This document shows, one piece after another, positions 568-33,124 of a DNA stretch of 33,254 bases (position 1 is the first letter of the stretch; every line of letters begins with the position of its first letter). The stretch spans positions 1 to 33,254 of the forward strand of contig JAULBX010027872.1 of assembly GCA_032358255.1 (NCBI GenBank), in the 5' to 3' direction. The position numbers and the translations under genes were made by a program. This stretch comes from Heterotrichella gracilis (taxonomy: Eukaryota; Sar; Xanthophyceae; Tribonematales; Xanthonemataceae). A model generated the notes under the pieces. The model made no database searches. It saw nothing but the letters and a program-made list of their open reading frames with translations, and was not told where the DNA came from.

Positions 568-3500
568 TCAATCCTCCCCCCCGTCCTCCTCCCCGGCCCC
601 TCCCCGCATCAAGCTCTCCCTGTTCTCCCACGCCCAGAACACCTCCACATCAGCCAACACCCCAAGCACAGTTCCCGCCACACCACACCGCGCAAGGTCC
701 CTCGGGGTAATCCGGGGGGGGCGCGCGGGGCGGATGAGATCCATGAGCTCGTGGGTGACTGCCTGGATGGAAAGGTCTGGGTTATGCCCTGCCTCTACCC
801 ACACGCGGTGCACGTCCTTGAAGAAGAGGTACAGGTCCGCCTGCAAGTAACTCATGGGGATTTTAGAGGAAATATATAAAAGGAGTTTCACAATACTTAT
901 TAAATCAGTAAGAGGGGGCGCCAGGGGCGGATGAGGTCCATGAGCTCGTGTGCGACTGCCTCAATGGAACGCTCTGGTAAATAGGTACAAGAATAGGTAC
1001 AAGTCCACCCGCAGGCAATTCAATTGCCATGATGGGATTGTTGAAGAGCATATTTGAGGAGGGGCTTCTCATTTCCAACATAAACAAAAGGGGGCGCGCC
1101 ACGGCGCAGGGTGGGTCATGCCCATCAACACGAGGGGGACTGCTCGTTTGGAAAGGCCTGGGCGAACCCCGCGACATGCGGTGCCCTAATCGTTTTCAAG
1201 AGGTGGCAATTGGAGGTTGAGAATTCGATGACAGTTAGGAGTGTAATGTGACTTTCACAAGACTTATCCCAATAAAGCCCATAGCTATAGTACAAATTAT
1301 TCAGGAGACTAAGTAGACTACCGTATTTTTGTATTTTTGTCTGACATCCACATAATTTCAAGGTATCTTTTACATTACCTGTGTGAGGTAGCCCCTGCCC
1401 TGCAAATCGAAAACCCTGAACAGCCATCGGATCCCAGGGAGGGTTTCTCGCTCCTCCCAGGCCAGCAGAAAATCCACAAATGTCAGGAAATCCATCTGGG
1501 TGAACGTGGTGCCGTAGGGGTCTGTGCGGGTGACCACATGCTCCTCAAATACGCGCTGAATGAAGAAGGGGGATAACGTCCCGGTACCAAACCTGCAAGG
1601 GCAGGAACATTGTACTGCTGCGGTGATGTTTAACCTGTGAGGATAATTTACTATGCCTAGGAAAGAAGATCACGAAGGAAATGAATAATTACCCTAGCCA
1701 AGAGCCGGCCTTTACAACGCGGCATTCACAGCAGATCCTTACCCCACCAATTCTTCCCTGCTCACCGCCCCTTCCCCCTCTATCTAACTCCACAAATAGG
1801 CACTCTCTCCACAAAGTGCAGGCTGAAGTAGTTGCGTGCGGCAGCAGATGGTACCAAGAAAAGGGCGCCATTAAGGAATTAATTGCAAACCCTGACCCTA
1901 ACTTTTGGGTATTGGGTCGTGGCCCACTCACCCCGCCAGCTCTTCCCTGCTCAGAAACCCCCTGCCCACCCTGTCCAGCCCCACAAATAGATCCTGCTCC
2001 CTTTCCACGCAGCGCAGGCTAAGCTAGTCGCGGGTGGCGGCCCCAAGAAGAGGGCACCCTAATGGAATTAGCCGGAAACCCTTCCCTCACATGTATAAAC
2101 CCAGCTAAGGGTTTTTGGTCGGCCAAACCACTCACCCCGCCAGCTCTTCCCTGCTCAGAAACCCCCTGCCCCCACTGTCCAGCCCCACGAATAGATTCTG
2201 CACCCTCTCCACGCAGCGCAGGCTGAACCAGTTGCGGGTGGCGGCACCGGGGGGTGCGGCCTGTAGGCGCATCAGCTCAGAAGTGACTGGGCTGTGCAGG
2301 AGCTGGCGGATGGGGATCCTGGGGATGGGGATGAGGATTTACCTTGCGGTTAGTATGGAATGGGTGGGGAAGTGTTGATGATTGTGTGCCACAGTGTGGT
2401 GAAGGGAGGGTGCCACCCGGGGTGACTGCAACATCCCTAAATCCTAAACTCTAAAACTATTTTAAGATTGAGCTGGCCAGCAGCTGGCAGATGATATTGT
2501 GGGAGGTGTTTAGGGTTTTAGGGTTTTTACCCCGCACCTGCCCTTGGCTGCATGGTACATCACAAATTTCCTCGCCACCACCCGGCAGTACTCCTCCACA
2601 TCCTCTGGATCTTGGAGCAGGTCCAATTTGGGCACCAGCGGTACCATGTGCGCCAAAAAGCGCTCCAGCTGGGGGCATGTGAGGAAGCCAGCGCCATCAT
2701 CATCGTAGCAACTGAGGGTGATGCGCTGGGGGTGGGGAGAGGTGGAAATGGGTGAGCTCAGTTTGGGCTATGTAGGTTAGAAACCTGGAATCCCACGCAA
2801 ACAACCCGTTGAAACAGCCTAGTGAGGACACTCTCTGCGCAAGGGAGGGCTCCAGCTGGAGGTATGTGAGAACACTGGTGCCATCTTCATCGTAGCAAAT
2901 GAGTGTGATGCGCTGGGGGTGGGGAGAGGTGGAAAGAGGGTGAGATTGGTTTGGGAAATGTAAAACATTCAAAACCTTAAACCTTTAGATATATAAACCC
3001 TGCGCGCTCAACCCTAAACCATGAATACAGGTACCCAGAACCCACCAGCTGCAGCGTTGCGCAGCGCGTCTGCATGTACTCAACAACTCCGCCGCGGCGA
3101 CCCTGCCCCAGCCATCCTTGGGCAGGCGCAGGAAGACAGGCGCAGTCATGACGAAAGCAAGCTCACGGGCAAGTGTAAATCCTAAGCCCTAAAACCTTAG
3201 CCATGTATCCTGCAGGTAGATAAATTGAAAACCCACCAGCTGCAGTGTGGAGCACCGCGCCTTTATGACCTCAAACAACTTCGCTGCGGCCACCCTGCCC
3301 CAGCCATCCGTGGGCAGGCGCAGGGACACAGATGCAGTCATGAAGAAGGCGAGCTTGCGGGCAAGTAAAACCCCTAAACCCTAAACCCTTAGCCAACTAC
3401 CCTCCAGGTAGATACGTTGAATACTCACCAGCTGCAGCGCGGAGCACCGCGCTTGTATATATTCAAACAACTCCGCCGCCGCAACCCTGCCCCAGGCATC

Positions 3501-4217
3501 CTTCGGCAGGCGCAGGAACACAGATGCAGTCATAAAGAAGCCAAGCTTGCGGGCGATCGTCCCCGGGACTTGCGCCAGGATCCCACGGTAGCCCTCATAG
3601 GGGAGGCGATCATCGCTGGATGAGGCTGTGTCGTGTGATAGCTGGCGCTGGATAGCCAGTTGGACTTCATCCCAGTCTGACGGATCGAGGATGACCTCCT
3701 GGAGCTCCTGGATGAGGGGTGTTCAGGGTTTAGGATTTACGTTTAGGGTTGAGAGTTAGGGTTGCCTTGCTGGATTCCCTCCCAGTCTGAGAGCTGCAGG
3801 ATCACGTGCTGAGCCTTTGCAGATGAGGAAATTGCTCTCGGGGTTTGCAATTAGGGTTTATGGTTGAGGCTGCTCTGTGTGACAGCTGGCGTTAAATGGC
3901 CAGCTGGACTTTAGTCCCTGAATTCTATATCTGAAGTTTGATAGAAATTTATCTCCTGGACCTCCTGAATAGAGAACAACAGTACCCCGGGTTATGGGTA
4001 TTTAGGGTTTCAAGGCTGGACAGTGTGAATGACCTACTGAAGCTCCACCATGACCCCCTGGTTCAGGGTTTGGAGTCCAGGATTTAGGGTTTGGCTATAA
4101 AACACCGCTCATACCTTGGATAGACTTTGGAGGACTTACCATGAGGGCTTGCAGATTTGCTTCCCCAGCTGAGGGCGCTCCTTCAAGGTTTGCATCTGTC
4201 ACCTCCTCGCTACCCAT
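568..4217 (-). CDS. TON2: TON2/FASS-like protein phosphatase 2A B'' regulatory subunit
   Basis: Exons, 5' to 3' on the minus strand: 4217-4140, 3707-3429, 2725-2538, 2318-2136, 1592-1379, 840-568 (404 aa; all phases agree). The family targets PP2A and, in plants, organises cortical microtubules and the preprophase band (TON2/FASS; animal PPP2R3C). An EF-hand-like loop (D127-D-D-G-A-G-F-L) is followed by Y-C-R-V-V-A-R-K-F, then N-W-F-S near 211 with a second loop ending G-R-G-F-L. The segment F-L-x-F-V-D-F-L-L-A-W-E leads to F-D-L-Q-G-R-G-Y-L, and the C-terminus has F-W-A-W-E-N-R-E. Order and spacing match TON2. The N-terminus is about 75-100 residues shorter than plant TON2. The chosen ATG follows TCCTACAG, a possible acceptor, so upstream exons may be missing. 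Introns are full of exon copies. Family assignment is firm; the start is not. Confidence 0.88.
905..1016 (-). repeat. Decayed copy of TON2-like exon 6 in intron 5
   Basis: This segment repeats the exon 6 stretch around 711-840 (GGCGGATGAG, TCCATGAGCTCGTG, GACTGCCT), with an internal deletion and many substitutions. It has no continuous frame matching the exon and is read as a fossil tandem duplicate. Confidence 0.7.
1735..2062 (-). repeat. Two decayed copies of TON2-like exon 4 in intron 4
   Basis: The segments near 1924-2062 and 1737-1860 each repeat exon 4 (2136-2318), including the ACTCACCCCGCCAGCTCTTCC donor-side block in the nearer copy. The nearer copy has an in-frame stop on the coding strand, and the farther copy is more diverged. 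Both keep the order of the source exon, so these are successive tandem duplicates. Confidence 0.8.
2835..2935 (-). repeat. Copy of TON2-like exon 3 5' half, with acceptor
   Basis: The segment repeats the first part of exon 3 (2640-2735), including the acceptor context CCCCCAGCGCATCAC on the coding strand and a mutated EF-hand-like loop (Y-D-E-D-G-T-S-V-L-T). It lacks the second half of the exon. The nearer copy at 2538-2725 is taken as the real exon because its frame continues through Y-C-R-V-V-A-R-K-F to a donor in the right phase. Confidence 0.8.
3035..3380 (-). repeat. Two copies of TON2-like exon 2 3' end plus CCCTAAA tracts
   Basis: Copies near 3041-3180 and 3230-3375 repeat the last third of exon 2 (3429-3560), with the blocks CACCAGCTGCAG, CCCTGCCCCAGCCATCC and GGGCAGGCGCAGG. 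Each ends, where the exon would continue, in degenerate CCCTAAA units (CCTAAGCCCTAAAACC and ACCCCTAAACCCTAAACC). Together with the real exon this is a three-copy array. Confidence 0.85.
3765..4065 (-). repeat. Decayed copies of TON2-like exon 2 5' end in intron 1
   Basis: Weaker copies of the exon 2 5' part (3640-3715) occur near 3771-3830 (CCCTCCCAGTCTGA) and 3866-3975 (TGTGACAGCTGGCG, CTCCTGGACCTCCTGAAT). They are separated by TTTAGGG-like stretches. No frame is preserved. Confidence 0.6.
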
Positions 4218-5497: not shown

Positions 5498-8400
5498 ATG
5501 AAACCCAGCCAGTTTCACCGGCAGGATGTGGCCTTCCTGCTCCTATTGGCTGCCTTCATTGTGGCCCATGCACAAACGGTACCGGCACGCCAACCCCACA
5601 CTCAACACCAAAACCACTGTACCCAGCTTCCCTGAAACGCACTGTGATACCATATGACAATACCAATTTTTCCAAGTCAACCAGGGCTTTCTAGCCCCGT
5701 TCCTGTCAACTCCAGACCGTATAATCCAGACCCCTTTAATGTGACAACAAGCAACAGCAAGCACTCTCCCTGGTCCCCGTCTACTCTTCCCACACCTTGT
5801 ACTCACCATCCACGCCTTGTAATCATTCTAACCTTCTTTTTGCACTTTTACAGAGCTGCAGGACGTATGAACAGCTGGGTCCCATTGTCCCTGGCGTGGA
5901 ATACCTCAATGACACCATCACAGTGGCCGATGCCTTTGATGTGGCTGACATCAAAGTGGTCATCAACCTGTCGCACCGCAAAATAGGGTCTCTAAGGGTA
6001 AGTGGGGTCCAGTGAAAAAAACTCAACCCTCACCCTATCACACCGCATGCGGGTTAGGGTTTTCAGATTAAGTGCAGTCCCCAAGAACCCTACATCGCAA
6101 ACCCCAAGAAAACCATCCCAGTGGCGGATGCCTTTGACGTGGGTGACATCAAGGTGGTCATCAATCTGTCACACCGCAAAATAGGGTCTCCAAGGGTAGG
6201 TGAAAAAACCCTTAACCCTAAACCCTAAACGTTTCCAATTGAAGTGGGTGACATCAAGGTGGTCATCAATCTGTCACACCGCAGGGTTGGGGCGCTCAGG
6301 GTCTGTGGTAAACCCAAAGCGCTCAACCATGAACCCTAAACCCTCAAAAGTATCCCTGTCACAAAACAGGATTGGGGTGCTCAGGGTAAATGGGGGTACA
6401 GTACCCCTGAAACCAACATTGGTAGCAGCCTAAAACCGCCTCCGCACCCACCTGTCACCCTAAACCAACTCCCGCACCGCTGCAGCCCCAAAACCCTAAC
6501 AATAAACTCCCCTAAACACCTACCCCCTTCTCCCCTTTCCCTACAGATCAAGCTGCAGCCCTCCAGCCCCTCCGGCTCCAAGTCCATCGTGCTGAAGATG
6601 CACGGGCTTGGAAAATTGGGGAATGACATGCTGGGATCAACATTCTGGGATAACGCGACAGCAAATTTCCCGGAGCCAGCGGTAGGTGCACTACAGTGGG
6701 TATACCCAAAAGCTAGGGTCTGCTAGGGTTCATCTTTTGGGATTCAGTCATGCCAGCGGCAAATATACAGCTAGAGGATGCTGCAAGAATTTTACTTCAT
6801 AGGCAAGTCCTCCGTCTCCCAAGTGACCCCCTCTTCTCCATCCTCCCCGCCCCTTCCAATAGTGTGATTAGGGATTAGAATTCTTGCCCAACCCAGCGGA
6901 TGTCTCATTCGCCCCACCTCATTCTTGCCCTTGCCTCCCATACGACCCCCATAATTCTCCCCCTTGTCCTCTCAGGACACCGCCCCCTTCACTGGTGTGT
7001 TCAAGCCCACTCAGTGGATGTCCTACCTGATTGAGGGAAGCAGCACCCAGGCGGGGGCGGGAGGCAGCCAGGGCAACTGGACTTTGGTCATTGGGGATGT
7101 GGCGACAGCCCCAGAACAGTGCGTCCCAACCCTAAACCCTAGACCATGTATGGAAGACCCCCAATCCAAAACCCTGAACCCTATATGTAGCTCCCCATGT
7201 TTTTAAAATAGGGTTTTTAAAGTAGGGTTTATAAAATAGGGTTTTTGGGCATGAATTGCATTGACAGGGAAGCAACACCTAGGCAGGGCTGGGAGGCAGC
7301 CTGTACAACTGGACCCTGGTCATTGGAGATGCGGCGACAGCGGCAGAACAGTACGCCCCAACCCTAAACCCTAAATTCTGGAAACCGGACACCTAAACAA
7401 CCTGCAATTCCATGATTTAGTGAGTTACCCGCAAACCAAAACATTTCTCCCATGCACCCCCACACGTGCGAAATCTCCCAAGCCTGAACAAGTGGTCTCT
7501 CACATTGTGCCCCCTGCCCCCCGTGGTCTCCTATTACCCTGCACATGTCATTTTGCTGCACTCTTGAGGGAAAGTATGGTGACCCAGAACCGCAAAAAAA
7601 TATACCCCCAACACGCTTCGATGCACTCTGCAGCACATATGCAACCCGCAAAACCCTGAACATTTCCCCCCTGTACCCCCGCAGGCGCGAAATCTACCTC
7701 AACAAGTGGTCCATCACATTATGCCCCGTGCCCCCAGTGGTCTCCCAGAGCGGACCCCCCAACAGCCGCGCCCCCTCTCCCCCCTCCCCACCCAAGCCCA
7801 CCACCCCACCGGTGGGGATTGCGGGCCATCCCGAGCCCTACACCACCATCGGCCAGGGTCTCACCTCCCGCATTGGCTGGAATGTCAAGTTTGTGAGCGG
7901 CATGCAGGCGCAGAAAGATTGTAGGTTATTGGAATATTTGCATTTGTTATAAGGAATTTATCTATGTTTTAAATAAAAAACCATGTAAAATTGGCTGGAG
8001 TGGCAAATTGTGAGCGGCATGCAGGCGCAGATTGTAGGTCATCGAAATCTGCCTTTTCCCTTTCATTTCCCCCTTACATATACTATTAGAAACCATGAAA
8101 ACAAGTCAAGTTGGAAACCCATTACATGAAGGGAGTGGCGCACCACGTTCCCTCGGAGCCTTACACCACCATTGGCCAGGGCCTCACCTCCCGCATTGGC
8201 TGGAATGTCAAGTTTGTGAGCGGCATGCAGGCGCAGAAAAACTGTAGGTTATTGCAATTTCTCTTTCCCTTCATTTCCCCCCCAATGAATTGAACTCAAA
8301 CAAGAAATCATGCAAACATGGTAAATTGAAAACGTTGTATACGTTATACCGAAGAACTATTGGGCGCCCGAGCCTTACACCACCATCGGCCAGGGTCTCA

Positions 8401-10914
8401 CCTCGAGGATCCTGCATTGGCTGGAATGTCAAGTTTGTGCACATGAGCGGCATGCAGAAAGGTTGGAGGTCATTAGTAATGACTCATTACAGTTGCCTTG
8501 TCCCTTTGATTTTCTTCCTGTGTATTCAACAAGCTTCTAGAAAGCATGAAAGGCAAGGTACCTTTAAAGCCCTCGGGAGTGGTGCGCCCCTGTCATCCAG
8601 AGGCCTATACCCACCTGCCTATACTACCAGGGCATGACCACCCGCGCTGGCCGGAAATTAAATATCCATTGTGCCACGTCAACCAGAAAAACAGGCAGGG
8701 AGATAGAGGGAGATACAACGTAGTCACTCGAAATGAATCGCACTCTGTTTCATCAGCCCCCCCTCGCCGCTACTGACCCCCTCCTACCCCCTCCCCTCCC
8801 GCAGCCCTCCCCAAGGAGTTCCTCCTGGACCACGGCCAGTCCCTCAAGGATGCACGCAGCAACCTGTTTGGATTCAAGTGAGTGCAGAACCACTCTGCCA
8901 TGCCTCCGTCACTACCTTTCTGTTCTCCTGTCGTTATCAATCCAGCCCTGTGCGCATCTGTCCATTACTAATGATTAAGTCGAGGAGTTTCCTCTATTGT
9001 GTCCAGTGATTCAAAATTGATTTCAATATTATCCTGCGCTGAACAACCCAAGGCTTAAGACCAATGACACGCTGGCAACTTTATATTTCCTGCTTAATTT
9101 TTTTTCTTGTTTACTTTTTTTATGTTGATGCTAATCACCGTACTCCCCATTTTATTTTAAATTTTGTATTCTTGCAGGCCTGCGCTTGATCAGGCCAACG
9201 ACCTGCTGACCAATGTGAGCTCAGCGGCTGACAACAGGACCAGAGAGATACTCAAGGGTGCGTGCGTGCAACCCTAAACCCTGCAACGTTAGACGAAACC
9301 CATGCGTACGCTAAAAACCCTAATCAGACCTGGCATTGAGTCCAATCCACCATCTCACAACCTCTTGGGGACAACACCTGGTGTCAATTTCCTGAGTGGC
9401 GCACCCGCCGCGACCAGTTATTGCGCGCAACCATATTTGCGCTTGACCCTAAACCTAAACCCTAAACCTGCTGATGTGGTGCACCTTTACAGCGCTGATG
9501 CTTTAGTCAGCATACATGTGACAACTCATGTGAATGGGATCTATCTTGCACAATTTCAGGTGACAACACCTGGTGCCAAACCCCCGAGTGCCGTGCCCGC
9601 CGCGACCAGTTCTGGCGCGCCACCATCTTTGCGCTCTACCTCTCCCAAGCAGATGACATCCAGAAGGCCCTCATCGACAATGCCAAGACCGCACTGCAGC
9701 ACCTGAACGAGACGTGGCCGCTGCCGGTGGGTGCATTAATGTTAGGAGTGGGGTGTGGTGTGGCTGACACGGTTTCTTGTGATGGGGTGACTTCAATATT
9801 TCCCCTCAGTTTTACACCACACCCCTTGCACCCACCGCAGTGGGCACCCATTGCACCCCCCGCCAGTTACTTGCCAATGTGCCACTGGCGGTGGGTCGAG
9901 GGGTAGGGTGTGAAGTCCGTGAAGACTGCACCCTTCATTATTAATTTCCAGAATATACGCTGTAAGGATACAGCTTGATACACATATTATTAAAAAGGGG
10001 GCTCTAGCATTTTTCTCCACCTGGTTCACAGGCCACCATGGTGGGGTGGGGCTGACTGCTGCGGTGCATTGTTACCCCCCCTAAGGGACTGGTCCCACCC
10101 CTGGTGCCCTCGTCATTTGGAAGGCGCGCCATTGCTGACCGCCAACCTCCCCATTTCACCTCCACTACAACACCTGTTTTCCTCCCCTTGCAGGGCAAGC
10201 TCACCGATGGCCTTGAGAGCTGGTTCGGCACGCTGACAGACGAGCACCAGGCACTCAAGAACGCCACAACACACATGAAGAAATCGGTGCGTATAGACCC
10301 TAAACCCTAGCCCTAAGCCCTAAACCCTAAACAGGTTTGGCACTCTGACAGACGAGCACCAGGCACTGAAGAACGCCACAACACACATGAAGAAGTCGGT
10401 GCGTATAAACCATAATCCCTAGATCCTGAACCCTAAACCTACACACATGAAGAACGCCACCTCACACATGAAGAAATCGGTGCGTGCCTGCAAACCCTAA
10501 ACCCTACTATCCTAAACTGAAGAAAAGCACCTCACACGTGTACGCCACGATGTACATGAAGAGATTGGCTCATGCCACAAATCCCCCAAACCCTAGACCC
10601 TGAATATGTAACTTGTTCCCCTTCTCAATAGAAACAATTGTATGTTTTAAATCTGCAGATGTAGAGAAATGATTGTTTTGCTCCCCTTGCAGGTCAAGGA
10701 CATGCTGGTGGGTGACGGCAGCCTCAAGAAGACCATCAAGGACGAGCTGCTTCAGTTCATCGACCCCAAACTGGGGGAGAAACTCGCTCCCCTTGACCTC
10801 AGCCACGGCTTCCCCGGCCTGTTCAAGCTGAGCGACCACCTGGGGGTGGATCTGGAGCAGTGGGTGGACAAGGCAAAGGGCTCTGTGTCGTCCTGGTTCC
10901 AAAACATGAACTGA
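5498..10914 (+). CDS. Secreted P/Homo-B domain protein without a protease domain
   Basis: Exons: 5498-5578, 5854-5997, 6547-6681, 6976-7118, 7685-7920, 8805-8877, 9178-9257, 9560-9726, 10194-10286, 10693-10914 (457 aa; phases agree). Residues 1-27 form a signal peptide (hydrophobic L-L-L-L-A-A-F-I-V core). Residues about 46-185 match the P/Homo-B beta-sandwich of proprotein convertases: V-x-V-V-I-N-L-S-H-R, S-P-S-G-S, F-W-D-N-A, A-P-F-T-G-V-F-K-P and G-N-W-T-L-V-I-G-D. An SPPSPP-type proline linker follows. The rest (about 210-457) is helical, with W-C-x3-E-C, several N-glycosylation sequons and a C-terminal E-Q-W-V-D-K-A-K-G-S-V-S-S-W-F motif that I do not recognise. No subtilisin domain or catalytic triad is present. 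A wall, matrix or secretory-pathway role is inferred. Confidence 0.82.
6105..6400 (+). repeat. Two to three copies of P-domain exon 2 with CCCTAAA tracts
   Basis: The segment near 6115-6197 repeats the exon 2 tail (GTGGCGGATGCCTTTGACGT through the donor AGGGTAGGTG) and is followed by CCCTTAACCCTAAACCCTAAA. A second copy near 6241-6290 repeats GTGGGTGACATCAAGGTGG through CACACCGCAGGG. A much shorter trace may lie near 6365-6390. The copies keep a donor-like end but no good acceptor. Confidence 0.85.
7205..7560 (+). repeat. Copy of P-domain exon 4 end and copy of exon 5 start
   Basis: The segment at about 7263-7372 repeats the end of exon 4 (GGGAAGCA, ACTGGACCCTGGTCATTGG, GCAGAACAGTACG) and runs into CCCAACCCTAAACCCTAAA; it has an in-frame TAG. 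The segment at about 7445-7540 repeats the start of exon 5 (GCGAAATCTCCCAAGCCTG, AACAAGTGGTCTCTCACATT). They flank each other in the intron between the two source exons, in source order. Confidence 0.8.
7985..8690 (+). repeat. Four copies of P-domain exon 5 3' end
   Basis: Copies near 7990-8035, 8141-8247, 8368-8470 and 8570-8665 repeat the block from GAGCCTTACACCACCAT through GGCATGCAGGCGCAGAAA. The first two keep the donor GTAGGT at the exact exon boundary; the later ones are progressively altered. The copy at 8141-8247 differs from the exon at only a few positions. Confidence 0.88.
9260..9475 (+). repeat. Partial copy of P-domain exon 8 fused to a CCCTAAA tract
   Basis: At about 9364-9452 the intron repeats the first half of exon 8 (GGGGACAACACCTGGTGTCA, CGCCGCGACCAGTT, ATATTTGCGCTTGACC). 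It then changes abruptly into CCCTAAACCTAAACCC at the point where the exon reads CTCTACC. A separate short tract follows the exon 7 donor near 9270. Confidence 0.88.
10287..10600 (+). repeat. Two to three copies of P-domain exon 9 end with CCCTAAA tracts
   Basis: The copy at about 10332-10410 repeats GACAGACGAGCACCAGGCAC through the donor TCGGTGCGTATA almost exactly. A shorter copy at about 10441-10490 repeats ACACATGAAGAA and TCGGTGCGT, and a decayed trace lies near 10520-10580. Each is followed by CCCTAAACCC-like units, as is the donor of the real exon 9. Confidence 0.88.
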
Positions 10915-10919
10915 CGGCG

Positions 10920-11345
10920 CAAGCTGGCGTCTCTTGCTCGATGGTTGGGCATCAAAAAGAGCAGGGTTTGATCATTGATGGATGAAGGGGCCAGAAGGGT
11001 TTGCAATGCAATCCTGGTAGCCCGGAGGGGTTTCCCAACAGATAACTTTGAAGTGGATTTGGATGAGTGGGTGGACAAGGCCAAGGACTCTGTGTCGTCC
11101 TGGTTCCAAACCTTGAACAGCTGTGGGCTACCCTTGAAGGGTTTGCATCCTGGTAGCGCGGAGGGTGGTCAAGTAGATTTGGAGCTGGATGCAGATAATC
11201 TGGATGCGTGGGTGGACAAGGCTATAGGTTGATAAGGGCTCTGTGTTGTCTTGGTGCCAAGATATGAACTCATGGCCCAAGCTATAGCGTCTGTGGCTCA
11301 GTATTTGGGCATCGGGGTGGAGTCGAGTTTGATGGATGAATGGAT
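10920..11345 (+). repeat. Tandem copies of the last P-domain exon and its 3' UTR
   Basis: Segments at about 11043-11120 and 11170-11345 repeat the terminal coding block (GAGTGGGTGGACAAGGCCAA, TCTGTGTCGTCCTGGTTCCA). The second also repeats the following 3' UTR (GGCCCAAGCTATAGCGTCT, GGCATCGGGGT, GATGGATGAATGG). They lie downstream of the stop codon and are not part of the coding sequence. Confidence 0.82.
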
Positions 11346-23569: not shown

Positions 23570-26500
23570 TCACCTCTCGTAGCCCACCTCGCCCACCCCC
23601 GTGTGCATGCCCTCGCCACCATTGTGGAACTCGGTGGGGTACGGCCTGCGCAGGAGGGGTCAGGGTTCAGGGTTGAGGGCACTGGTTGGGGTACTCAGTG
23701 GGATGTGAGCTGGGCAGTGGGGTTAGGGTTTAGGGTACTAGTTGGGGTCCGGGTCTTTATCAGATATACTGGATTGCACATGCACCATACAAATGCAGTA
23801 TGTTTTTTTGTCAAAGCCAATGATTGCTCCAACAATTAAACAAAAACCCATACTTCTCATACGCACTTGTCCAATTTTCTTCTTGCAATCAACCAAGCCC
23901 CGCCACCCACCTGTCGCCCTCCCGCTCCCCCTCCCTCCCCAGGTACCTCCCGCCGCCATTCGGCCCCATCCCCATCCCCATCCCCCGCCCGCCACCGCCA
24001 CCGCCACCGCCAACCCCCCGCGCCCCCCCATTGTCTGGCGAGTAATATCCCCCCCCTTGTCGGGGCTCCATGGCTGCTGCTGACATCACGTGCTCTGCAT
24101 GTGACATGTGTGATGGCATGTAGTTCATCATCTCCCGGGCCTGGTGGGCCTGCTGCAGGGCGATGTGGGCGCTGGCCAGCTGGGCAGCCATCTCAGCTTG
24201 CTAATTTGGAAAGGGGCGGGAAACGTATTAGTACCGAGGGTTTACAGCTCAGGGTAAAAATGAATGGGGATGGGATGGGGATGTTATTTGCAGGGTGGAA
24301 TTTGCAGGTGCAGGGGGGGTCAATGGGTGCGTGGGCCTGCTGCAGGGCGATTGGGCGCTGGACAGCTGGGCAGCCATCCCCGCCTGCTGCAGGAGGTACA
24401 GGGTTTTGAGGTTCAGCGGTGTAGGGTAAGGTTTTCGGTTGTGGGGTTAAGGGCATCTGCTGCGGCGACATGCATGGAGCTGAATTGTTTAGGGCTGAAC
24501 GCTTTAAGGACAGGGTTCAGGGGCAGCACCACCCACCTGCTGCGGCGACATGTAGCCTCCCGGCGAGCTGCCCGCCATCGCCGCTGCCATGGCCGCCATT
24601 TGCGCCATGTGGGGCGGCAGGTTCATGTTCATTGCAGCCGCCATGCTCGCCGCCATGGCCGCCATGCCCATCCCGGGGGGGAAAGACATCTGGCCCGTGC
24701 CCGCCATGCCGCCGCTGCCACCGATCCCGCCATGCCCGCCGCCGTTCCCCACCATGCCGCCGCCGTTCCCCGCCATGCCGCCGCCCATCCCCACCATGCC
24801 GCCGCCGTTCCCCGCCATGCCGCCGCCCATCCCCGCCATGCCGCCGCCCATCCCTGCCATGCCGCCGCCCATCCCGCCATGCCCGCCGCCCATCCCGGAC
24901 ATGCCGCCGTTCCCGCCCAATGCCGCCATGTGCGATGGCGACAGAGTCGTCGGCATGCTGTCGGGGCCGCGCGGGTGGTGGTGGTGGTTGTGGGGGTTGT
25001 GGGGGGCCGGGTGGGTGGAATAGTGGTTGCTGGGTGTGGCGGCGCTGGGGTGGGGGGGCAGGGGGCCGCCTGCGGGTGCACGGGTGGTGGTTGGGATGGG
25101 GATTGTCTTGGGGATGGAGATGGACCAAAGGCAGATATTAATAATATCATTTTATATGTTCAAAGGCGCGACGGGTACATTATTATTCTATTTCTATTTC
25201 TATTTCTACATGTTCAATTATGTATCGCCCTTGACGGTGTGAAGATGTGCACTCATCAGGCATCCAAGCAAGCACGCATGCTGCAGAGCGTGGGCTCAAG
25301 TGTTTAGGGTTTAGGGTTCAAGGGTTTAGGGTGACACCCTAATCCACCGTGACCCACCACCCTACACCCTAGAAGCCCAAACACCAGAAAGGTGTACACA
25401 TTCCAACAACGGGGCACAAATCAACTCGCATCCCCCCCCCCCCCTTCCTCGCACCCCGCCCCACCTTTCTCATATCCGCGACCCGATAGCCGCATTAAAC
25501 CACGCAACCATAACCCTAAACCCTACAACCCTGCACCGCACCTGGGTACATGCCTTGCATCGATGGGATTTCCTTGCTGTAGGTGTGGCCATGCCCGTAG
25601 CCCTCTCCCTCCACCCCCCCTTGCCTCACTTTCAGGTCGGAGAGGGTGTGCACATAGGCGCGCAGGGCATATAGGCCCTGGCCCACCCGCACAAAGATAT
25701 CGTTCTGTGGGCAGGGGAGTAGGGTTTAGGAATGGGACTAGGGTAAGGTCAGTTGAGGGTGCGGACAGTATTGGCATGGCGATGCCAGTTTGGAGAGCAG
25801 CGTAAGGGTTTAGGGTTTAGGGTTTAGGGCGAGGGTGTGCACATAGGCGCGCAGCGCATATAGGCCCTGGCCCACCAGCACAAAGATGTCGTTCTGTGGG
25901 GGCACACAGGGTGGTGGTTAGGGTTCAGTGTTTGGGGTGTAGTGTTCAAGGGAAGAACAGTAAGGGTGCTGACAATATTGGCATGAAGACGTTGTTGTAA
26001 AGAGCCAGGTTAGCGGTCTAGGGTTTAGGGCGAGGGTGTGCACATAAGCGCGTGGGGCGTACAGGCCCTGGCCCACCCACACAAAGATGTCGTTCTGTAG
26101 GGGGCAGGGGATTAGGGTTTAGTTTTGGGACTGGGGAAGGTAGCGGACCACAATTTAGGTTTAAGCATGGTCCTGCACTGACATCAATTCAACCCTAGCC
26201 CTAAGCTGTACACAACATCACAGGCACCCATGATGACAAGCAACCTTGACACACAAGACCCTGGCTTAGGGTTGGCGTATAAGGGTAAATGACTCACCCC
26301 TGTGCAGCAGGCGTTGATTGTTGCGGCGGGGGTTGCGGCGGATCCCCAGTCCCGCAGGTCCTGGCGCACGGTCTCCTCATATATTATTTTTGGCGTTAAT
26401 CCCCCTGGCCCGGCTTGCTTCAGCACCTGGGAAGCAGCAGAGTTTAGGGTTAAGGGTTTAGGGTTTATGGAGGGTGGGTTGGGTGACCTGGTAGGGTTGC

Positions 26501-28382
26501 AGCAGGGTGGGAGGGGAGAGAGGAGGGTCGTGCCCAACAGGGGAGGTTCTGAGGGGTAAGGTGTGTGTGCGCTTGCATGGCAAGGGGGGTTCTGCACGCT
26601 TTTGAGGAGTTGCATCCCCTATGCCTACCTGCTACAACTTTGAGCCTCAGCTGCAGAGTCTGCTCCAACTCCTCACCTTCTTCACTACACGGTATGCAAA
26701 GTCCTGTGCTCCCCCAAGAGTTTTTTCACTCGCCAATCAAACTTCAAAATACGCAATCACGAGCTCTATCCCCTCATGCCTTACCTGGTAGATGATGTAC
26801 TTCACTGTCCCTGTGCGGCACTGCCGTTCGTCATCCTTCAACCGCACTTGCAGGGTCTTCTCCAACCACTCCTCATCCTCCTTACTAAGGGAGGCAGCAG
26901 CAGCCAGGTGCGAGGGGACGGCGTTGTTTCCCCCTTGACCACGGGCCTGTGCGGAGGAGGGGTCCCCATGCGGGGGCCGTTGCATGGATTCAGTGGCGGT
27001 GGCTGGCGAGGGGGTGTGGCGGGAGGGGGGGGTGGCCTTGGCGGGGGGTGGTGCGGCGGTGGTGCGGGGTCTCGCCTGTGGGTGTGGGGTGGGGAGGGGT
27101 GTTATTGAGGACGGGGCGAGAAGAAATTCCAATCAGGTATACATATGCGTACGCATCCCAAAAAGGGTCCTTCGGGGGGAGCATGCAACTGCTACACATC
27201 CATTATTGTCCCCCAGCCTTGAAACCCCAAACCCTAAACCCATTCCTCTTCACCCCCCATCCATTGCGCATCCCTTCCCCAGCCTCCCCATCCCCCCAAC
27301 CCGCCTGTGGCCTGGTAATTTCCTCCCCGCCCTTCCCGCGGTGCACAACCCCTTGAATGGCTCCAGAACCGTGTCCCTCTACCGCCCACTTCCAACATCG
27401 GACTGTAGCATGTTACCTCCACCATCCCCACGCCACCTACCGCCACCACCCACCCCTATCCCACTCCCCACCACCCCACCCACCTGCGGTCTGCCACTGA
27501 CTTCCTCCCCTGCCCTTTGATGGTACACAGCCTCCTGGGTGGCCTCAGAATCCTCATCGGACCACTGCGCCTTGGCTTTGTCGCTCGCCTTCCTACGCCT
27601 GCGCTGGGTCCCATTGCTCCCCTCGTCGGCAGGCAGCGGAGTGCCCGCCAGGCTCTGGAGCACGTGCGCCATCTGCAAGCACAACAGCAAATAAATATCC
27701 ATTAAAACTATGTGGATTTGCTAGAGAGCTGGGTAGCAGGTTGGGTGGGAACACAGGCCCCAACTTTTGCACAGGCGCCATCTTTTGCGTACATACTCAG
27801 TACATCGAGTACGTACTCGCACACAATATATTTGTGACAACACGCTTTCCGGATTGCACTTGCACAAAATAATAAAAGCTGTTCACCCAACCCACCCGCA
27901 GTGCTTAAGGATTATTTTTATTTGAGGTATAAACCAGCATTAAAAACGAGGAGTGGTACATTTGATAGTATGAACACAAAATAGATAGATACTAATCCAC
28001 CCACAACTCAGTTTCCATCCCCTCCTGCAGCTTCCCATCCTCTTCCCTTCCTCCCCATCGCTCCCCACTGGCTGGGCCTGCTTGCATTCCCACACTTTAA
28101 ATCCTAAACCCTAAAACCTTTCAAAAAGTTAATTTCCATCCCCACCTGCAGCTTCTCCTCGTCCTCCTCGTCCTCCTCCTCCTCATCATCACTCCCCTCT
28201 GGCTGGACCCGCTTGCGCCGCTTTGACCCCGTGGCACTTGCGGGTGTGGCACCCGGCTTTGCGCTCACTCGGCGTGCACTGATGGGGGGCTTGGTGGCCC
28301 TGGCGGGTGTCGGGGATTTGGCGGGTGTCGGTAGGGTGTCTGGGGTGTCGCTGCGGCGTGTGCGGGACTTGCGGGGGACGCT
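23570..28382 (-). CDS. HARE-HTH domain nuclear protein with Met/Gly-rich repeats (5' end unresolved)
   Basis: Exons on the minus strand: 28382-28146, 27672-27484, 27075-26785, 26426-26298, 25704-25542, 25069-24537, 24200-23911, 23645-23570 (635 aa visible; phases agree). In order: a Ser/Pro/Lys-rich basic stretch with S-K-R-R-K-R; an acidic run of D/E (about 62-76); a second basic patch Q-R-R-R-R-K; and, at about 232-299, a HARE-HTH fold (T-V-K-Y-I-I-Y-Q-V-L-K-Q, L-T-P-K-I-I-Y-E, T-P-A-A-T-I-N-A, I-F-V-R-V-G-Q-G-L-Y-A-L-R). After that come a His-rich stretch, a long G-G-G-M-A/G repeat, Ala/Met runs and a Gln/Ala helix. HARE-HTH occurs in chromatin proteins such as ASXL and plant DDT/homeobox factors, so a chromatin role is inferred. 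The first exon opens at an acceptor with no ATG. A tiny upstream exon ending at 28435 (donor GTAATT) is possible. The donor at 23911 could instead be about 30 bp upstream. Confidence 0.75.
24280..24480 (-). repeat. Copies of the HARE-HTH gene exon 7 start and exon 6 end
   Basis: In the intron at 24201-24536, about 24325-24395 repeats the exon 7 start (GGGCCTGCTGCAGGGCGAT, TGGGCGCTGGACAGCTGGGC). About 24450-24475 repeats the exon 6 end (ATCTGCTGCGGCGACATG). A TAGGGTAAGGTTTTCGG telomere-like stretch lies between. Both copies sit next to their sources. Confidence 0.8.
24705..24915 (-). repeat. Coding minisatellite for Gly-Met repeats
   Basis: Within exon 6 of the HARE-HTH gene, units related to CCGCCGCCCATCCCCGCCATG repeat with few differences and encode G-G-G-M-A-G-M/N-type repeats. 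The period is a multiple of three, so copy-number change would keep the frame. Long open frames on the opposite strand here are by-products of the composition. Confidence 0.85.
25800..26110 (-). repeat. Two copies of HARE-HTH exon 5 start fused to CCCTAAA tracts
   Basis: Copies at about 25828-25897 and 26030-26099 repeat the exon 5 start with its acceptor (coding strand CCCACAGAACGA, TCTTTGTG). Both break at the same place, after GTGCACACCCTC, into GCCCTAAACCC. The real exon at 25704-25542 continues instead as TCCGACCTG. All three acceptors look usable. Confidence 0.9.
26620..26700 (-). repeat. Decayed copy of HARE-HTH exon 3 segment
   Basis: CAGCTGCAGAGTCTGCTCCA and ACTCCTCACCTTCTTCACTA resemble the exon 3 stretch near 26835-26890 (CTTGCAGGGTCTTCTCCAAC, CACTCCTCATCCTCC). 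The similarity is partial. Confidence 0.5.
27995..28125 (-). repeat. Decayed copy of HARE-HTH first exon 3' end with CCCTAAA tract
   Basis: AGTTTCCATCCCCTCCTGCA, GCTTCCCATCCTCTTCCC and GGCTGGGCCTGCTTGC repeat the end of the exon at 28146-28382 and its donor context. TTTAAATCCTAAACCCTAAA lies between the copy and the exon. Confidence 0.75.
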
Positions 28383-31171
28383 CTGCGGCAATGGGGGAGG
28401 GGGGTGGATCGCGTGAGAAAAGCTGTGTAATTACCTTGGCGACACCGCGGCTGCTACGTGTGACTCATGTAAACCCTAAACCCTAATAGAAGCCACAACC
28501 TTGTGGCACGTGTGGGTCACAAGCCCTTATGTAGGTTAAATGGGTAGCTACAAGTGTTCCAGTGGCGGCTGCTACGTGTGACGCATTTAAACCCTGAACC
28601 CCGCCACAACCATGTGGCATAGGCCCGTGCACAGCCCCGTGCAGCGGTGCATACGCCTGTGCAGATGCGCTAACTGACCCTGCAAGGGACCCTGCAACAG
28701 CCTGGCCCAGAAGCCCACTCCATACAAGCGCAACCCCCCTTAGAAGGCACCCGCAAGGGGCAATGCTAGGGCATGATACGCTCAAAAGACCAGGTTTATA
28801 CAGCTTTTAAAGGAGTTTTGCACAACTGGCTACATCAGCTGTGTTTGCGAGTGGGGAGGGTGCATACAGCAAGCCCTTGCGGTGCAAGGGTTGGGTGGGT
28901 TCCCGTTGGGGGCAGGCTGCCAGGCTGGTGTGGCGTTGCACCAAGGGATGCTGGGGGCCACCGGCAATCTGCTGTGGCGTTCACCACGCATGCTGCTGGG
29001 TGTGCAAAATAGTGAAGCACTGTACACAGCAGGCTCTCACCCAGGATGGAATCTCAAGAGAGAGGGAAGGTTGCCGCAGATGTGTGTTGAATTGAGCACT
29101 CACCGACATCAACCCCGGGTGTGGCGCCTCATGCTCTCCACCAGACTGCTTCCGGCCGCTCTGTGCCATGTTGCCCCTGCCTGTTGCCCCTGTTGCAGCA
29201 GGCCTGGCTGTTGTCCCAGCTGTGTGTGTCCTTTCGGCCTCTACACCTCAGACCGTCGAGGTGGCAAGCCTGTGCAACAAGCAGCCCTGTTGCTGTTGCC
29301 CCTGTTGTGTATCTCCTTGATGCCTTTACACCTCAGGTTCAGACCGTCGAGGTGTCAAGTCTGTGGTGCAACAAGGGGCGCTGTCAAGTTCATGACCACC
29401 CAACCAAGCAACAGTGGGGTATTTTGAGTGGTGCAAGCTGATCCCATGGGGCAGGTGAATCAGTGGCATGTGTTCCCACGCCATGCAGAAGGAGTGCAGC
29501 TACTGACGAGTGGTTCGTGTGACTGGCGTTGACGGCAAGTGAGTGGCGGTCGCTGGAGGAGTGCGAGGGACACAAACAACCAGTGGCTGCAGAATGCTGG
29601 GGGGGGAGGTTCCACATGCCTTCAAGGGTTTTCAAAACCACGGCCTCGCATCACATCGGCAACGGTGTGTTGCTTGGGGTACGTTCGGACGGTATTCACT
29701 GCTTTAAAAGGTTTTAGTGCTCTTGCCCAAGGGACCAGCCAAAGGCACAACAAGGTTCTCGCCAGGTTTAAAACGTTCCGTGGAAAGCACACACGCATGC
29801 CACCCGACTCAGACAGACACACCGCGGGAGAAGGCAGGCAGGAGGCAAAGTGGTGAACAAACAACCAAATGTGGCCCGATCCCGTACATTCTGACGCGAG
29901 TCTTCACGCTGCCTTATGGCAGGTTGTCGAAAGCCAGGGATGCACCAACTCACCCGTTTAAGGCCGCCAAGCGAGGGAACCTGGGTTCCCCAGTTAGAAT
30001 ACTTCCAGCTCCGAGCTTTCACCCACTTCTAAAACCACTGCCGGTTTGCTCCAAATCCTGCGACGACGGCGCCACACGCTGAACAACCGTGGTACCAAGG
30101 ATGCGTTGTGTGATGCCCATGTGATGCAAAACGGACATGCACGTGCATCGCTTGTGACGCCAAGAAAGACCACATCCCCGGTGAAAACGCAGCAAACGCA
30201 CAGGGAGTCTTGCTGCCACGATGTTCAAGCGCTGGACGGGTGCCACAGAGCGCCAAGTGCTTGTATGCAGGACGGCTGATGCCTCCACGACGATCACAAA
30301 CATGGCATGGATCCGTGGGTGCTTACAAATTTCCGGCAAAAACCTGTCTCGGACGCAGCATACAGGCCAAAAGCTGGGCGGCTGTGAACCTTTCCAAACA
30401 GCATCAGGGCTATACACACGACGGGCCGTGCAAATAGTTTCCTCTCAGGGGCCAAGTCGTACAAACGATACCGAAAGGGTAAAGCTGCATCGGCGCGGGA
30501 AACAGCTGGCATCACCCACGCCCTGCACCATGCACTACCCCAGAGCCGTGGGAAAGGTTTTACCTGCAGGTTCCTCCTCGCGAGCTCCCTTGGCAGGTTG
30601 AACACAGCTTGGCGAAAGTGCTTTTCACCAGTTCTGCTAGGCAATGCCCACCTGGGCCACGTCACTTGGGTACCACACGACACAGCTGTTTTGAACAGCA
30701 GCTGGGCAGGTTCGTCGGCGACAGAACCCTCAGGTGTCTTGCAAGTAGCTCAGCAACCCAGGCAATGCTCGCGTTTAAAACAAGGGAGTTTCAAATTGGC
30801 GCCAAGAGAATGCGTGATGCATGTACATCCTCGTATCCTTTACTGGCGACCAAGGACACCGCTACTGCTTTGCCAGGCGCAAACAACACCTTTGCTTTGA
30901 CACACGACCGACCTCGTAGCTTTGCAATACAGCTTGTAAAGGGGCTTTGCTTGTTTACGTCGTCCGAGAAAAAGGTTGGAGGGCTTTCGTCAGCCTGTTC
31001 ACAAAACGTTTTCAGCTAACCGTGTTGTGCTTCCCTTGTACCACCCTGGAACCACGCAAAACCCAACCCATTCGGCGCTGTGTGGGCGGTGCTCTCTCAA
31101 AGATAAAAGAGCAAGAAGCACCTAGAAACCCACCATTCAAGCCTGGAACCCTGTGGTGAATTGGCACCCAC
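28383..31171. promoter_or_regulatory. Upstream region of the divergent HARE-HTH and AhpC/TSA genes
   Basis: This 2.8-kb stretch should hold both promoters and the missing 5' exon(s) of the HARE-HTH gene. Between 28440 and 28625 a block (CTGCTACGTGTGAC, CCACAACC) occurs twice around CCCTAAACCCTAA, possibly copies of a small 5' exon or UTR. From about 29400 to 31150 there are no telomere-like tracts or exon copies. Open frames up to 132 aa occur on both strands but resemble nothing known and lack splice support. Confidence 0.45.
29175..29385. repeat. Tandem duplication of about 100 bp
   Basis: Two units share TTGCCCCTGTTG, CTACACCTCAGACCGTCGAG (TTTACACCTCAGG plus AGACCGTCGAG in the second) and a GTGCAACAAG end. 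They are diverged by small indels. No gene is recognised here. Confidence 0.75.
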
Positions 31172-33124
31172 ATGGGCACAATGCTTTTAACGCAGAGTGT
31201 GGCTCGCTCCATCGGGGCGCCACTCCTGGTGAAGGGCAGTTATCGTCCCAACGCAGCACTGTTTACCAGCCAGGGAGTGCGCAGCGGCTCAGGTGCAGGG
31301 CCCCATCTGTCACAGAACACCCTGTTTCGTGGAAGCCAGGGTATTGGGACACCATCTGCGAGGAGTGGTGTTCGCATGGCAGCCACATCATCAGCTGACA
31401 TCCAGACGTCTGCAAACCCGTACGAGGCGCTGCAAGGCCTGGAGGTGCGTTACAGCGTGGTGCTAGGAGGTGCACAAGAGCATAAACCTGCTTGCTAAGC
31501 AATGGAGTAGTTTTGCCTCTCGGAATGTGGCCGGAATGTGCCTACATCTGTAACCATGTGGTGCAAAAGCCCACTTAGTAGTGAGTCCTGATGGCTTCAT
31601 ATGTGCTACTAAACCACTCAGGCAACGTTCACGTGAACCGGCCGCCATCGATTTTTCCCTGTGGTTATATCCTTGGGCACCAAGTGACATGTCACCTGGT
31701 GCATCTGAGGTGCAGCTAGTTCCCTTCTGCCTCTTCCCACTGCACCTGAGCTGCTAGGAAGCTTGCCCTGGATTAGGGTTTTTAACTTGAAAACCAATAA
31801 TAGACGGTGTATATACTAGTGCCCACTGGCAATGCCCATATCTGGACTGCACGCAATCCAACCTATCTCAGGCGGTGTCAAGGGTCCTGGAGCGCTCAGG
31901 TTTCGGTTGCTTTCCTCTAGGTGTACCTGGTGTCTACCCAGGGCAAGGTGGAGGTCACCAGTCTGTGGGGCGCCAAGGAGCGTGCGGTGCTGGTGTTCGG
32001 GCGCAGCATGGGATGACCCTTCTGCTGGTAAGCCCATGCTGTCAGTGTCAGATACTAGTGAGATACTTGTGACACTGTCGCTGCACATGCATGGGTATGG
32101 GTGAAGGAGCCTGCCCCGCGGTTGCCGCCACTCGAAACCCTCTTGCGAGGCTAAGCGTGGCACTGCAGCCATGGCGTGTCCCCCCACCCCCTACCCCCAA
32201 CTACTCACCGGTGGCGGGCTCCCCACTCACCCCCCCCCCACCTGCCCCCAACTCACTCACCCCCACTCATTGCAGGGAGCTTGCGGTGCAGCTGCGCCGT
32301 GACCTGCTCCCAGCAGCAACCTCCCAGGGGGTGAAAGTGTACATGGTCACCATTGGGCCCCCCGCTCGTGGCTTTGAGTTCTGTGAGAAGACTGGCTTCC
32401 CACCAGAGCACCTGCTGGCCGATCCCGACAACGTGTGCTACAGCGCTGTGGGGTTCAAGAAGGGGGTGGCAGAGACCTTCCTGAGCTGGAAGGTGTGCTT
32501 CAATCCTACTTGGGGTCAAGTACTAGGTTTAGGGTTTAGGGCTCCTGAGCTGGAAGGTGTGCTGTACGCATCCCTTGCGGGACTTCAGCGTTAGGATTTA
32601 GGGCTGGTTAGGGTATGCACCGAAATTTCGTCTGCATGGAGATGGGCGCTCATGCTTCCCAGCAATTACCCAGCAGAGCACCTGCTGGCTGTTCACTTGT
32701 GCTACATGTGCTTAATTAGATATAAACAAATGGGTAACAGTGGACTTGCACGATTAAAAGAAACGCATGTGGGGTATAAGAAGGGCGTGCCAGAGACGTT
32801 TCTGAGCTGGATTATCACATATGCCCCTCGGGCCATCCAGAAGCGCATCCAAAAGGGAAGCACGGGCGATCTCAAACTCTGAGCCATTTAGGCTAAAACC
32901 CTGGTTGAGTTTTGTGCAGACCCCACTGGCCATCTGGAAGCGCATTCAAGGGGGAAACACAGGCGACCATAAAACCCTAAACCCTAACGATAAACCCTAA
33001 GCTCTGGCTGTGTTTTTTGCAGACCCCCATGGCCATCTGGAAGCGCATCCAGGGGGGAAATGCAGGCGACCTCAAGGGCGTGTTCAAGAACTGGGTGCCC
33101 TGGAACCCACCCAAGATGGACCAG
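31172..33124 (+). CDS. Plastid-targeted AhpC/TSA (PRXL2/SelU-like) protein, candidate selenoprotein, 3' truncated by the window
   Basis: Exons seen: 31172-31444, 31921-32027, 32276-32492, 33023-33124 (233 aa so far), then a GTGGGT donor near the window edge. Residues 1 to about 70 are rich in Ser, Ala and Arg and lack acidic residues, as in a chloroplast transit peptide. The thioredoxin-fold part runs R-A-V-L-V-F-G-R-S-M-G, then an in-frame TGA codon (123), then P-F-C-W-E-L-A-V-Q-L, V-K-V-Y-M-V-T-I-G, L-A-D-P-D-N-V-C-Y and W-K-R-I. The TGA occupies the first Cys of the CxxC redox motif that land-plant relatives carry just before W-E-L-A; SelU proteins are known to have UxxC. The frame is in phase before and after it. 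A stop reading would leave only 122 residues and abandon clear homology. The SECIS element would lie beyond the window. Family call is firm; Sec use is inferred. Confidence 0.82.
31445..31920 (+). other. Intron 1 of the AhpC/TSA-like gene
   Basis: This 476-bp intron has no exon copy that I can see and only a single TTAGGGTTTTTAAC word near 31773. It contains nothing else of note and ends TTTCCTCTAG. Confidence 0.6.
32014..32016 (+). other. In-frame TGA, probable selenocysteine codon
   Basis: The codon lies in exon 2, eleven bases before the GTAAGC donor, in ATG-GGA-TGA-CCC-TTC-TGC. Together with TGC it gives U-P-F-C, and the next exon supplies W-E-L-A. Position in the fold, conserved neighbours and phase all point to selenocysteine rather than termination. 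Confidence 0.75.
32493..33022 (+). repeat. Fossil copies of AhpC/TSA-like exons 3 and 4 in intron 3
   Basis: Near 32537-32565, CTCCTGAGCTGGAAGGTGTG copies the exon 3 end and donor after TTTAGGGTTTAGGG. Near 32660-32710, CCAGCAGAGCACCTGCTGGC copies mid exon 3. Near 32769-32883, TATAAGAAGGGCGTGCCAGA continues directly into GCCATCCAGAAGCGCATCCA, joining exon 3 and exon 4 sequence. Near 32921-32970, CCATCTGGAAGCGCATTCA copies exon 4 and its acceptor, then CCCTAAACCC follows. Confidence 0.88.

Follow-up and report, generated by a model that had tools for sequence, protein, structure and literature searches.

Several described systems come close to what is found in the 33,254-base contig C535 of the xanthophyte Heterotrichella gracilis (JAULBX010027872.1 in assembly GCA_032358255.1), which was analysed over its entire length and is referred to below as the window. 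Short interstitial telomeric sequences of primates, rodents and horse are internal tracts of a few telomere-motif units that insert at breaks, sometimes with a duplication, and for which telomerase has been proposed; only 3 of 66 horse loci show a duplication alone, and in human 31% of these sequences lie in introns, as random insertion would give (PMC7215372). Small tandem duplications are formed by CST-guided fill-in of 3' overhangs by Pol alpha-primase, the stretch between staggered nicks being duplicated, and the same paper cites paired-nick duplications in plants (PMC8355091). In intron gain by tandem duplication, a duplication of exon or exon-intron sequence is hidden by splicing and makes a new intron (PMC4974935).

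The introns of the window carry partial, same-sense copies of adjacent exons together with tracts of CCCTAAA/TTTAGGG. These tracts share motif, internal position and low unit number with interstitial telomeric sequences, but unlike them they are almost confined to introns and are associated with duplications of 60-190 bp. What sets them apart from the duplications filled in by CST and Pol alpha is a junction that often holds a tract and a bimodal spacing, telomeric filler not being described in the available portion of PMC8355091. Instead of new introns being made, existing ones are lengthened. Introners, or introner-like elements (mentioned in PMC12730881), are dispersed families that likewise change introns on a genome scale, whereas the copies described here appear to stay within the gene that they come from. 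Alternative exons can arise by tandem exon duplication; adjacent exon copies are common to both cases, but those in the window are partial and seem to be decaying. The ingredients are individually known; it is in scale, intron restriction and spacing that the case goes beyond them. A first interpretation of the letters alone (the sequence-only reading) had known no standard name for this architecture, and fairly so: names exist for its parts (interstitial telomeric sequence, small tandem duplication, intron gain by tandem duplication), while no description of the whole appeared among the matches listed in an open-access literature search, which left most subscription papers outside. To our knowledge, intron lengthening is poorly documented outside transposons, and the architecture suggests one way in which introns can grow.

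Self-alignment of the window (at least 35 bp, E 1e-4, near meaning 60-1000 bp apart) gave 49 near direct repeat pairs and neither near inverted nor distant direct pairs, and ten block-wise dinucleotide shuffles gave no direct or inverted pairs of any class; a laxer E of 1e-3 added three inverted matches of 29-41 bp, each more than 1 kb apart. Exon models built by hand, with frames checked, comprise five genes (four complete proteins and one truncated at the contig end) with 39 introns of 183-1148 nt. A same-sense copy of an adjacent exon is present in 22 of these introns (z>5 and above all 100 dinucleotide shuffles), the upstream exon being copied in 14 and the downstream exon in 12; for genes 1 to 5 the counts are 4/5, 5/9, 8/14, 4/8 and 1/3, and among introns of at least 400 nt they reach 17 of 24. 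The adjacent exon outscored the best of the other 42 exons in all 22 copy-bearing introns; in a comparison of raw scores, the best value per intron was 14-28 for non-adjacent exons, 9-28 for antisense and up to 91 for adjacent exons in sense.

After exclusion of alignments with fewer than 25 exon bases or below 33 bits, 43 copy alignments were counted within 24 introns, with identities of 68-99%. Most copies diverge from their source by 5-30%, one unit is 96-99% identical, and indels occur in 17. The splice site is crossed by 30 of the 43. The median copy takes in 76 nt of exon and 6 nt of sequence past the splice site, in a query that included no more than 60 nt of intron; upstream-exon copies (n=26) extend 30-137 nt and downstream-exon copies (n=17) 49-124 nt into the exon. 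The copies are short tandem duplications that lie head-to-tail beside their source. The sequence-only reading had described recurrent, local, same-sense copying with telomeric sequence in all five genes and both orientations, and had counted 35-40 copies by eye; the self-alignment and the scoring of introns against flanking exons and shuffles that it proposed are those reported above, and they bear out this description, including its five examples (3041-3380, 7990-8665, 15515-16085, 16208-16612 and 25828-26099), all of which are real. Its wording that introns are built from such copies and tracts was overstated: both exist, but copies cover 19.3% and telomere 7-mers 6.8% of intron bases, so that about a quarter of the intron sequence can be recognised as one or the other. 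The genes and, below each, its copies and tracts are as follows (percentages are identities to the source).

568..4217, minus strand: gene 1, PP2A B''-type regulatory subunit, an EF-hand protein; 6 exons
3181-3362 (84%) and 3040-3170 (82%), minus: two copies of the 3' end of gene 1 exon 2 (3423-3554) with donor; over 3040-3362 the spacing is 192, with sense TTTAGGG at the junctions
3861..3911, minus: copy of the inner 5' part of gene 1 exon 2 (3617-3667), 78%
2836..2962, minus: copy of the 5' end of gene 1 exon 3 plus its acceptor and 49 intronic nt, 82%, spacing 188
1924-2044 (91%) and 1738-1846 (74%), minus: two copies of the 3' end of gene 1 exon 4
914-977 (86%) and 1104-1162 (71%), minus: two copies from gene 1 exon 6
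5498..10914, plus strand: gene 2, P-domain protein (PF01483); 10 exons
6101-6202 (87%) and 6239-6308 (80%), plus: two copies of the 3' end of gene 2 exon 2 with donor
6216-6229: CCCTAAACCCTAAA between these two copies
7266..7373, plus: copy of the 3' end of gene 2 exon 4 together with the donor and a CCCTAAA tract, 85%
7427..7531, plus: copy of the 5' end of gene 2 exon 5 with acceptor, 79%
7990-8031, 8156-8258 and 8367-8474, plus: three copies of the 3' end of gene 2 exon 5
9367..9448, plus: copy of the 5' end of gene 2 exon 8, continuing into a CCCTAAA tract, 82%
10297-10332, plus: telomere tract before the copies of gene 2 exon 9
10334-10439 (90%) and 10450-10485 (94%), plus: two copies of the 3' end of gene 2 exon 9
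11053..11118, plus: copy of the last exon of gene 2 (10846-10911) in the 3' flank, 89%
13020..21841, plus strand: gene 3, a 763-aa protein; 15 exons
15029..15080, plus: copy of the 3' end of gene 3 exon 5, behind a CCCTAAA tract, 81%
15586..15619, plus: CCCTAAA tract, first junction of the gene 3 exon 6 repeat
15623-15758 (99%), 15807-15885 (96%) and 16004-16095 (90%), plus: three copies of the 3' end of gene 3 exon 6 with donor, 184-bp unit
16200-16262 (70%), 16344-16408 (82%) and 16545-16607 (94%), plus: three copies of the 5' end of gene 3 exon 7
16944..17015, plus: copy from gene 3 exon 8, 82%
17447..17510, plus: copy of the 5' part of gene 3 exon 9, 77%
17903..18029, plus: copy of the 3' end of gene 3 exon 9 with donor, 79%, spacing 198
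18698..18723, plus: weak short copy from gene 3 exon 10, 88% over 26
19398..19482, plus: copy of the 5' end of gene 3 exon 12 with acceptor, 81%, spacing 193
19865..19992, plus: copy of the 3' end of gene 3 exon 12 with donor, 74%, spacing 186
20975..21022, plus: copy of the 3' end of gene 3 exon 14, 73%
23570..29169, minus strand: gene 4, HARE-HTH protein (PF05066); 9 exons
28005..28085, minus: copies from the 3' part of gene 4 exon 2, two alignments, 79% and 84%
27284..27368, minus: weak copy of the 3' end of gene 4 exon 3, 68%
26635..26688, minus: weak copy from gene 4 exon 4, 69%
25805-25829, minus: tract beside the copies of gene 4 exon 6
25828-25900 (95%) and 26029-26136 (85%), minus: two copies of the 5' end of gene 4 exon 6 with acceptor
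24331..24388, minus: copy of the 5' end of gene 4 exon 8, 92%, spacing 186
31181..33124 and beyond, plus strand: gene 5, an AhpC/TSA_2 protein containing an in-frame TGA; the contig end cuts the gene after 4 visible exons
32768-32811 (86%) and 32669-32694 (weak, 88% over 26), plus: copies from gene 5 exon 3
32824-32875 (75%) and 32896-32968 (85%), plus: two copies of the 5' end of gene 5 exon 4

CCCTAAA/TTTAGGG is the telomere repeat of this genome, because 7-unit arrays of it sit at contig ends: they begin 4-138 bases from the start of contigs C70, C140, C609, C712, C717 and C770, and a reversed array stops 3 bases short of the end of C607 (200,630 bases); four further contigs (C173, C460, C660 and C872) carry reverse arrays, which are not counted as terminal. 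Over the whole assembly (68.5 Mb in 903 contigs) the 7-unit search gave 45 overlapping matches and its reversed-pattern control none, and the 14-mer CCCTAAACCCTAAA has 2784 matches on one strand and 2845 on the other, compared with 3 and 2 for the reversed control. A telomerase RNA-binding domain is encoded on C626 (E 4.8e-13).

In the window all 62 exact 7-mers are intronic, whereas exons (7.5 kb) and other DNA (7.8 kb) hold none (binomial P 2.3e-10 for the comparison with intergenic DNA); with all rotations counted, 466 fall in introns, 12 in intergenic DNA and 7 in exons. Elsewhere in the assembly we sampled 23 readable 10-kb stretches (230 kb), after dropping one that was all N (L021) and one that held 55 bases of the window end (L009), and annotated them with a gene-finder model trained once on the five hand-built genes, which on the window itself predicted five genes and 79 exons and so reproduced exactly 35 of the 44 hand-built exons (as measured before a one-base frame slip of gene 1 in the training set was corrected); a self-trained gene finder was discarded because it gave one run-on gene per stretch. 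In the samples, 89 of the 7-mers fall in introns (80 kb), 39 in unassigned DNA (86 kb) and 1 in exons (64 kb), with P 1.3e-6 for intron against unassigned, class counts that are approximate as predicted exons include some copies and unassigned DNA includes missed genes. The intron share of tracts thus exceeds the expectation for random insertion in window and samples alike, and the enrichment that the sequence-only reading had made a matter of the whole genome extends beyond the window to the 230 kb sampled, where duplicate pairs also recur. Intronic 7-mers are denser in the window than in the samples (3.5 and 1.1 per kb), loci that differ.

Within sample introns the tracts peak 10-40 nt from both splice sites, at 1.5-3.3 per kb compared with 0-1.34 in other bins. 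On the sense strand CCCTAAA is commoner than TTTAGGG (48 vs 14 in the window, 55 vs 34 in the samples); in the samples this bias is strong within 40 nt of acceptors (26 vs 3) and slight within 40 nt of donors (19 vs 15). Genome-wide, a donor-like AGGTRNGT is followed by GTTTAGGG within 30 nt in 703 cases and at 100-130 nt in 296, and by CCCTAAAC in 318 and 182, with backward controls of 33 and 20 for the near counts of GTTTAGGG and CCCTAAAC, respectively; these are counts of matches and not of loci, the far counts are inflated by tandem arrays, and GTTTAGGG may overlap a GGGT donor tail, so that the ratios are rough. The acceptor pattern TGCAG, with 3271 and 2658 matches, was too common and its reversed control unfair, and nothing is inferred from it.

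Window and samples together contain 135 local duplicate pairs, not counting pairs of low complexity or with few non-telomere bases, of which 60 are exon-intron, 34 intron-intron, 16 exon-exon, 12 unassigned on both sides and 13 other. They occur in 19 of the 24 stretches, the window being the richest with 38; distant direct pairs are absent from the window and number 7 in three of 18 readable sample stretches. A telomere tract lies at the junction in 33 of the 59 non-overlapping exon-intron pairs, compared with 17.9 (sd 3.2) for random intronic windows, a count reached in none of 500 simulations. This enrichment is driven by the samples (18/35 vs 6.7 expected, 0/500). The claim that copies are joined to tracts therefore holds for the pooled pairs; for the window alone, where it had been made, the excess is not significant (15/24 vs 11.4, 54/500), and copy-bearing and tract-bearing introns overlap only loosely there (15/22 vs 7/17, Fisher P 0.11). 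Tract and copy behave as if they aged together: a junction tract is present in 25 of 40 young pairs (at least 85% identity) and in 14 of 44 old ones (below 80%).

The start-to-start spacing of 108 non-overlapping pairs (27 overlapping ones being left out) falls mainly at 85-119 bp (38 pairs) and 170-209 bp (31 pairs), with 13 between. In a Silverman test on the 94 pairs spaced 50-260 bp, the other 14 being left out, one mode was rejected (0/500 bootstraps) and two were not (0.348); with 69 loci counted once by their shortest spacing the one-mode value was 0.006. The window favours the peak at 190 and the samples that at 100. Nucleosome or half-nucleosome spacing behind the two values is only a thought. 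At C11:63168-63786, the ends of GTTTAGGG-TGCAG matches are spaced 192, 101, 193 and 102 bp, a mixture of both preferred spacings.

Among the three routes put forward by the sequence-only reading, break repair with telomeric-repeat addition fits these data best. We give an even chance to a recurrent repair process in which about 60-190 bp are duplicated, telomeric filler is inserted and the copies that survive are concealed by splicing. At a staggered break, a stretch of this length would be duplicated in tandem and telomere repeats would be added at the junction, giving a unit, a TTTAGGG or CCCTAAA tract and again a unit. The break may have had long 3' overhangs, one or both of which would be extended by telomerase, filled in by CST and Pol alpha-primase, the machinery of the telomere C-strand, and then joined. 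Duplications wholly within coding exons would mostly be purged by selection, while those that span a splice site or lie within an intron would persist because the spare copy is spliced out; surviving copies would decay, and later rounds, including exchange between tracts, could lengthen the intron further. It is we who infer the combination of CST fill-in duplication with telomeric insertion at breaks, as well as the parts given to telomerase, overhangs, timing and selection. The presence of both tract orientations after donors is as expected of a strand-symmetric DNA process.

A number of observations weigh against this repair model. Its weakest points are the scarcity of intergenic tracts and the tracts on intron-side outer edges. 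Random breaks predict intergenic tracts, yet none of the 62 in the window is intergenic, and the samples have 39 in 86 kb of unassigned DNA; this near absence means that transcription-linked breaks or a function of the tracts would be needed in addition. A tract at the intron-side outer edge (27/59) is nearly as frequent as one at the junction, 18 of the 33 junction-tract pairs also have an outer tract (15 are junction-only), and among the 40 young pairs 15 lack a tract at the junction, 7 of which carry one at an outer edge. To these are added the window's non-significant junction count, the weak enrichment in intron-intron pairs (7/18 vs 3.7, 28/500), the junctions of the three gene 2 exon 5 3'-end copies (7990..8474), at which no tract was found, and in-register microhomology with the telomere repeat, which at 19 boundaries gave mixed overlaps of -5 to 11 with few clean boundaries. 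The stronger proposal, in which introns of this alga grow chiefly through telomerase-coupled, transcription-linked repair whose reach is fixed at about 100 or 190 bp, we consider less likely than not. If it is true, every event leaves a copied exon end and a telomere-repeat mark at the junction, and intron length records repair history.

The tracts might instead be selected intronic elements that aid splicing or expression, the exon copies being separate, ordinary tandem duplications that gather in introns. The intron specificity of the tracts, their peaks near both splice sites, the sense bias at acceptors and the enrichment of donor-like sequence before GTTTAGGG and CCCTAAAC all speak for this explanation, which we nevertheless regard as unlikely: both orientations occur near donors, and the genome-wide donor bias is to TTTAGGG, the acceptor bias of the samples to CCCTAAA. 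By a general rule of splicing, AG is avoided upstream of the acceptor, and the acceptor bias can be attributed to avoidance of the AG in TTTAGGG. Moreover, the junction enrichment over random intronic windows ties tract to copy, and the exact 7-mer is missing from 17 of the 39 window introns. In a further rival, the DNA between two telomere-like tracts that already existed is copied by replication slippage, a route named in the sequence-only reading, or by unequal exchange. Some arrays do repeat exon end and tract as one unit (15439-15885, 184 bp), donor-tract matches recur at 86-105 bp on contigs C26, C93, C42 and C76, and the outer tracts in 18 of the 33 junction-tract pairs would be expected. 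However, the outer tract is on the exon side in only 7 of 59 pairs, exons being nearly tract-free, which makes it improbable that the first duplication of an exon end came from exchange between two tracts; we rate this explanation as quite unlikely overall, though tract exchange may drive later rounds where a tract lies inside the repeated unit, as at 15439-15885.

Very little probability remains, in our judgement, for the copies being functional alternative or mutually exclusive exons. Several retain open frames and splice sites, those at 15625-15698 and 15809-15882 lying between AG and GT, and differences between source and copy are concentrated at third codon positions (103/954, 106/948 and 233/948 at positions 1-3), a 2.2-fold excess that also counts against the repair model, being above our rough, unsimulated guess of 1.5-1.75 for an unconstrained copy. 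Some excess is expected, however, if the source exon alone is constrained. In the 26 gapless copies (the 17 gapped ones being left out of the stop test), 108 codons change the amino acid, compared with 151 expected if changes were random and in the copy, but the 4 stops are not significantly below the 7.2 expected with all changes random in the copy (0.138 of simulations were as low), and indels interrupt 17 of the 43 copies. Gene 1, read without copies, is colinear over residues 71-390 with a B'' gamma-like protein (327 columns), and its 16 gap positions leave no space for copies of 12-42 residues. The data fit copies that are mostly unconstrained, some of which may be used. Intron birth by tandem duplication inside an exon (the Rogers model) would leave exon-sequence direct repeats in introns, and cases are known (PMC4974935); we think it highly improbable here. 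The order that it predicts, a downstream-exon copy after the donor and an upstream-exon copy before the acceptor, is found in none of the 43 window copies: the last 145 nt before the acceptor are free of upstream-exon copies and the first 109 nt after the donor are free of downstream-exon copies, and most copies are on their own exon's side (22/26 and 14/17, respectively). Copies that carry intron flank are, by that token, younger than the intron. Lastly, tandem repeats mis-assemble easily and one unit is 96-99% identical, but we give almost no credence to an assembly or tandem-repeat artefact, as the copies mostly diverge by 5-30% and 19 of the 24 stretches contain pairs.

At many loci in this one genome, each event leaves two readable marks: the exon copy gives its date, and the telomere tract hints at the enzyme involved. 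If the repair model is true, telomerase acting inside genes has left a large natural record in this genome, and from sister strains one could measure how introns grow, how breaks at splice sites are repaired and what telomerase contributes.

A few further features of the window genes were observed. The last coding exon of gene 2 has two copies in its own 3' flank, past the stop codon (10846-11346). A Pfam search with the gene 3 protein gave no match, and neither did a comparison of the gene 5 protein with PDB. The gene 5 product is probably a selenoprotein, presumably SelU-like, a prediction made because of a single in-frame TGA (32014-32016) in the context GRSMG-TGA-PFC. Two COX1 matches were seen in the assembly, the second of which (C1:295936-297372) may mark a bacterial contig. 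Among the matches listed (120 of 7999), the COX1 protein of contig C713 shares 95% identity, over 54% of its length, with a protein from a lichen record (Candelaria pacifica MAG), 93% with unnamed environmental proteins and 87% with Chlorella sorokiniana and Chloroidium; if C713 comes from the same organism as the window, this single gene would place it with the trebouxiophyte green algae, perhaps as a lichen partner. A search with RuBisCO gave no match. Within a coding exon of gene 4, a 21-bp tandem repeat is present in 10 copies (24693-24909).

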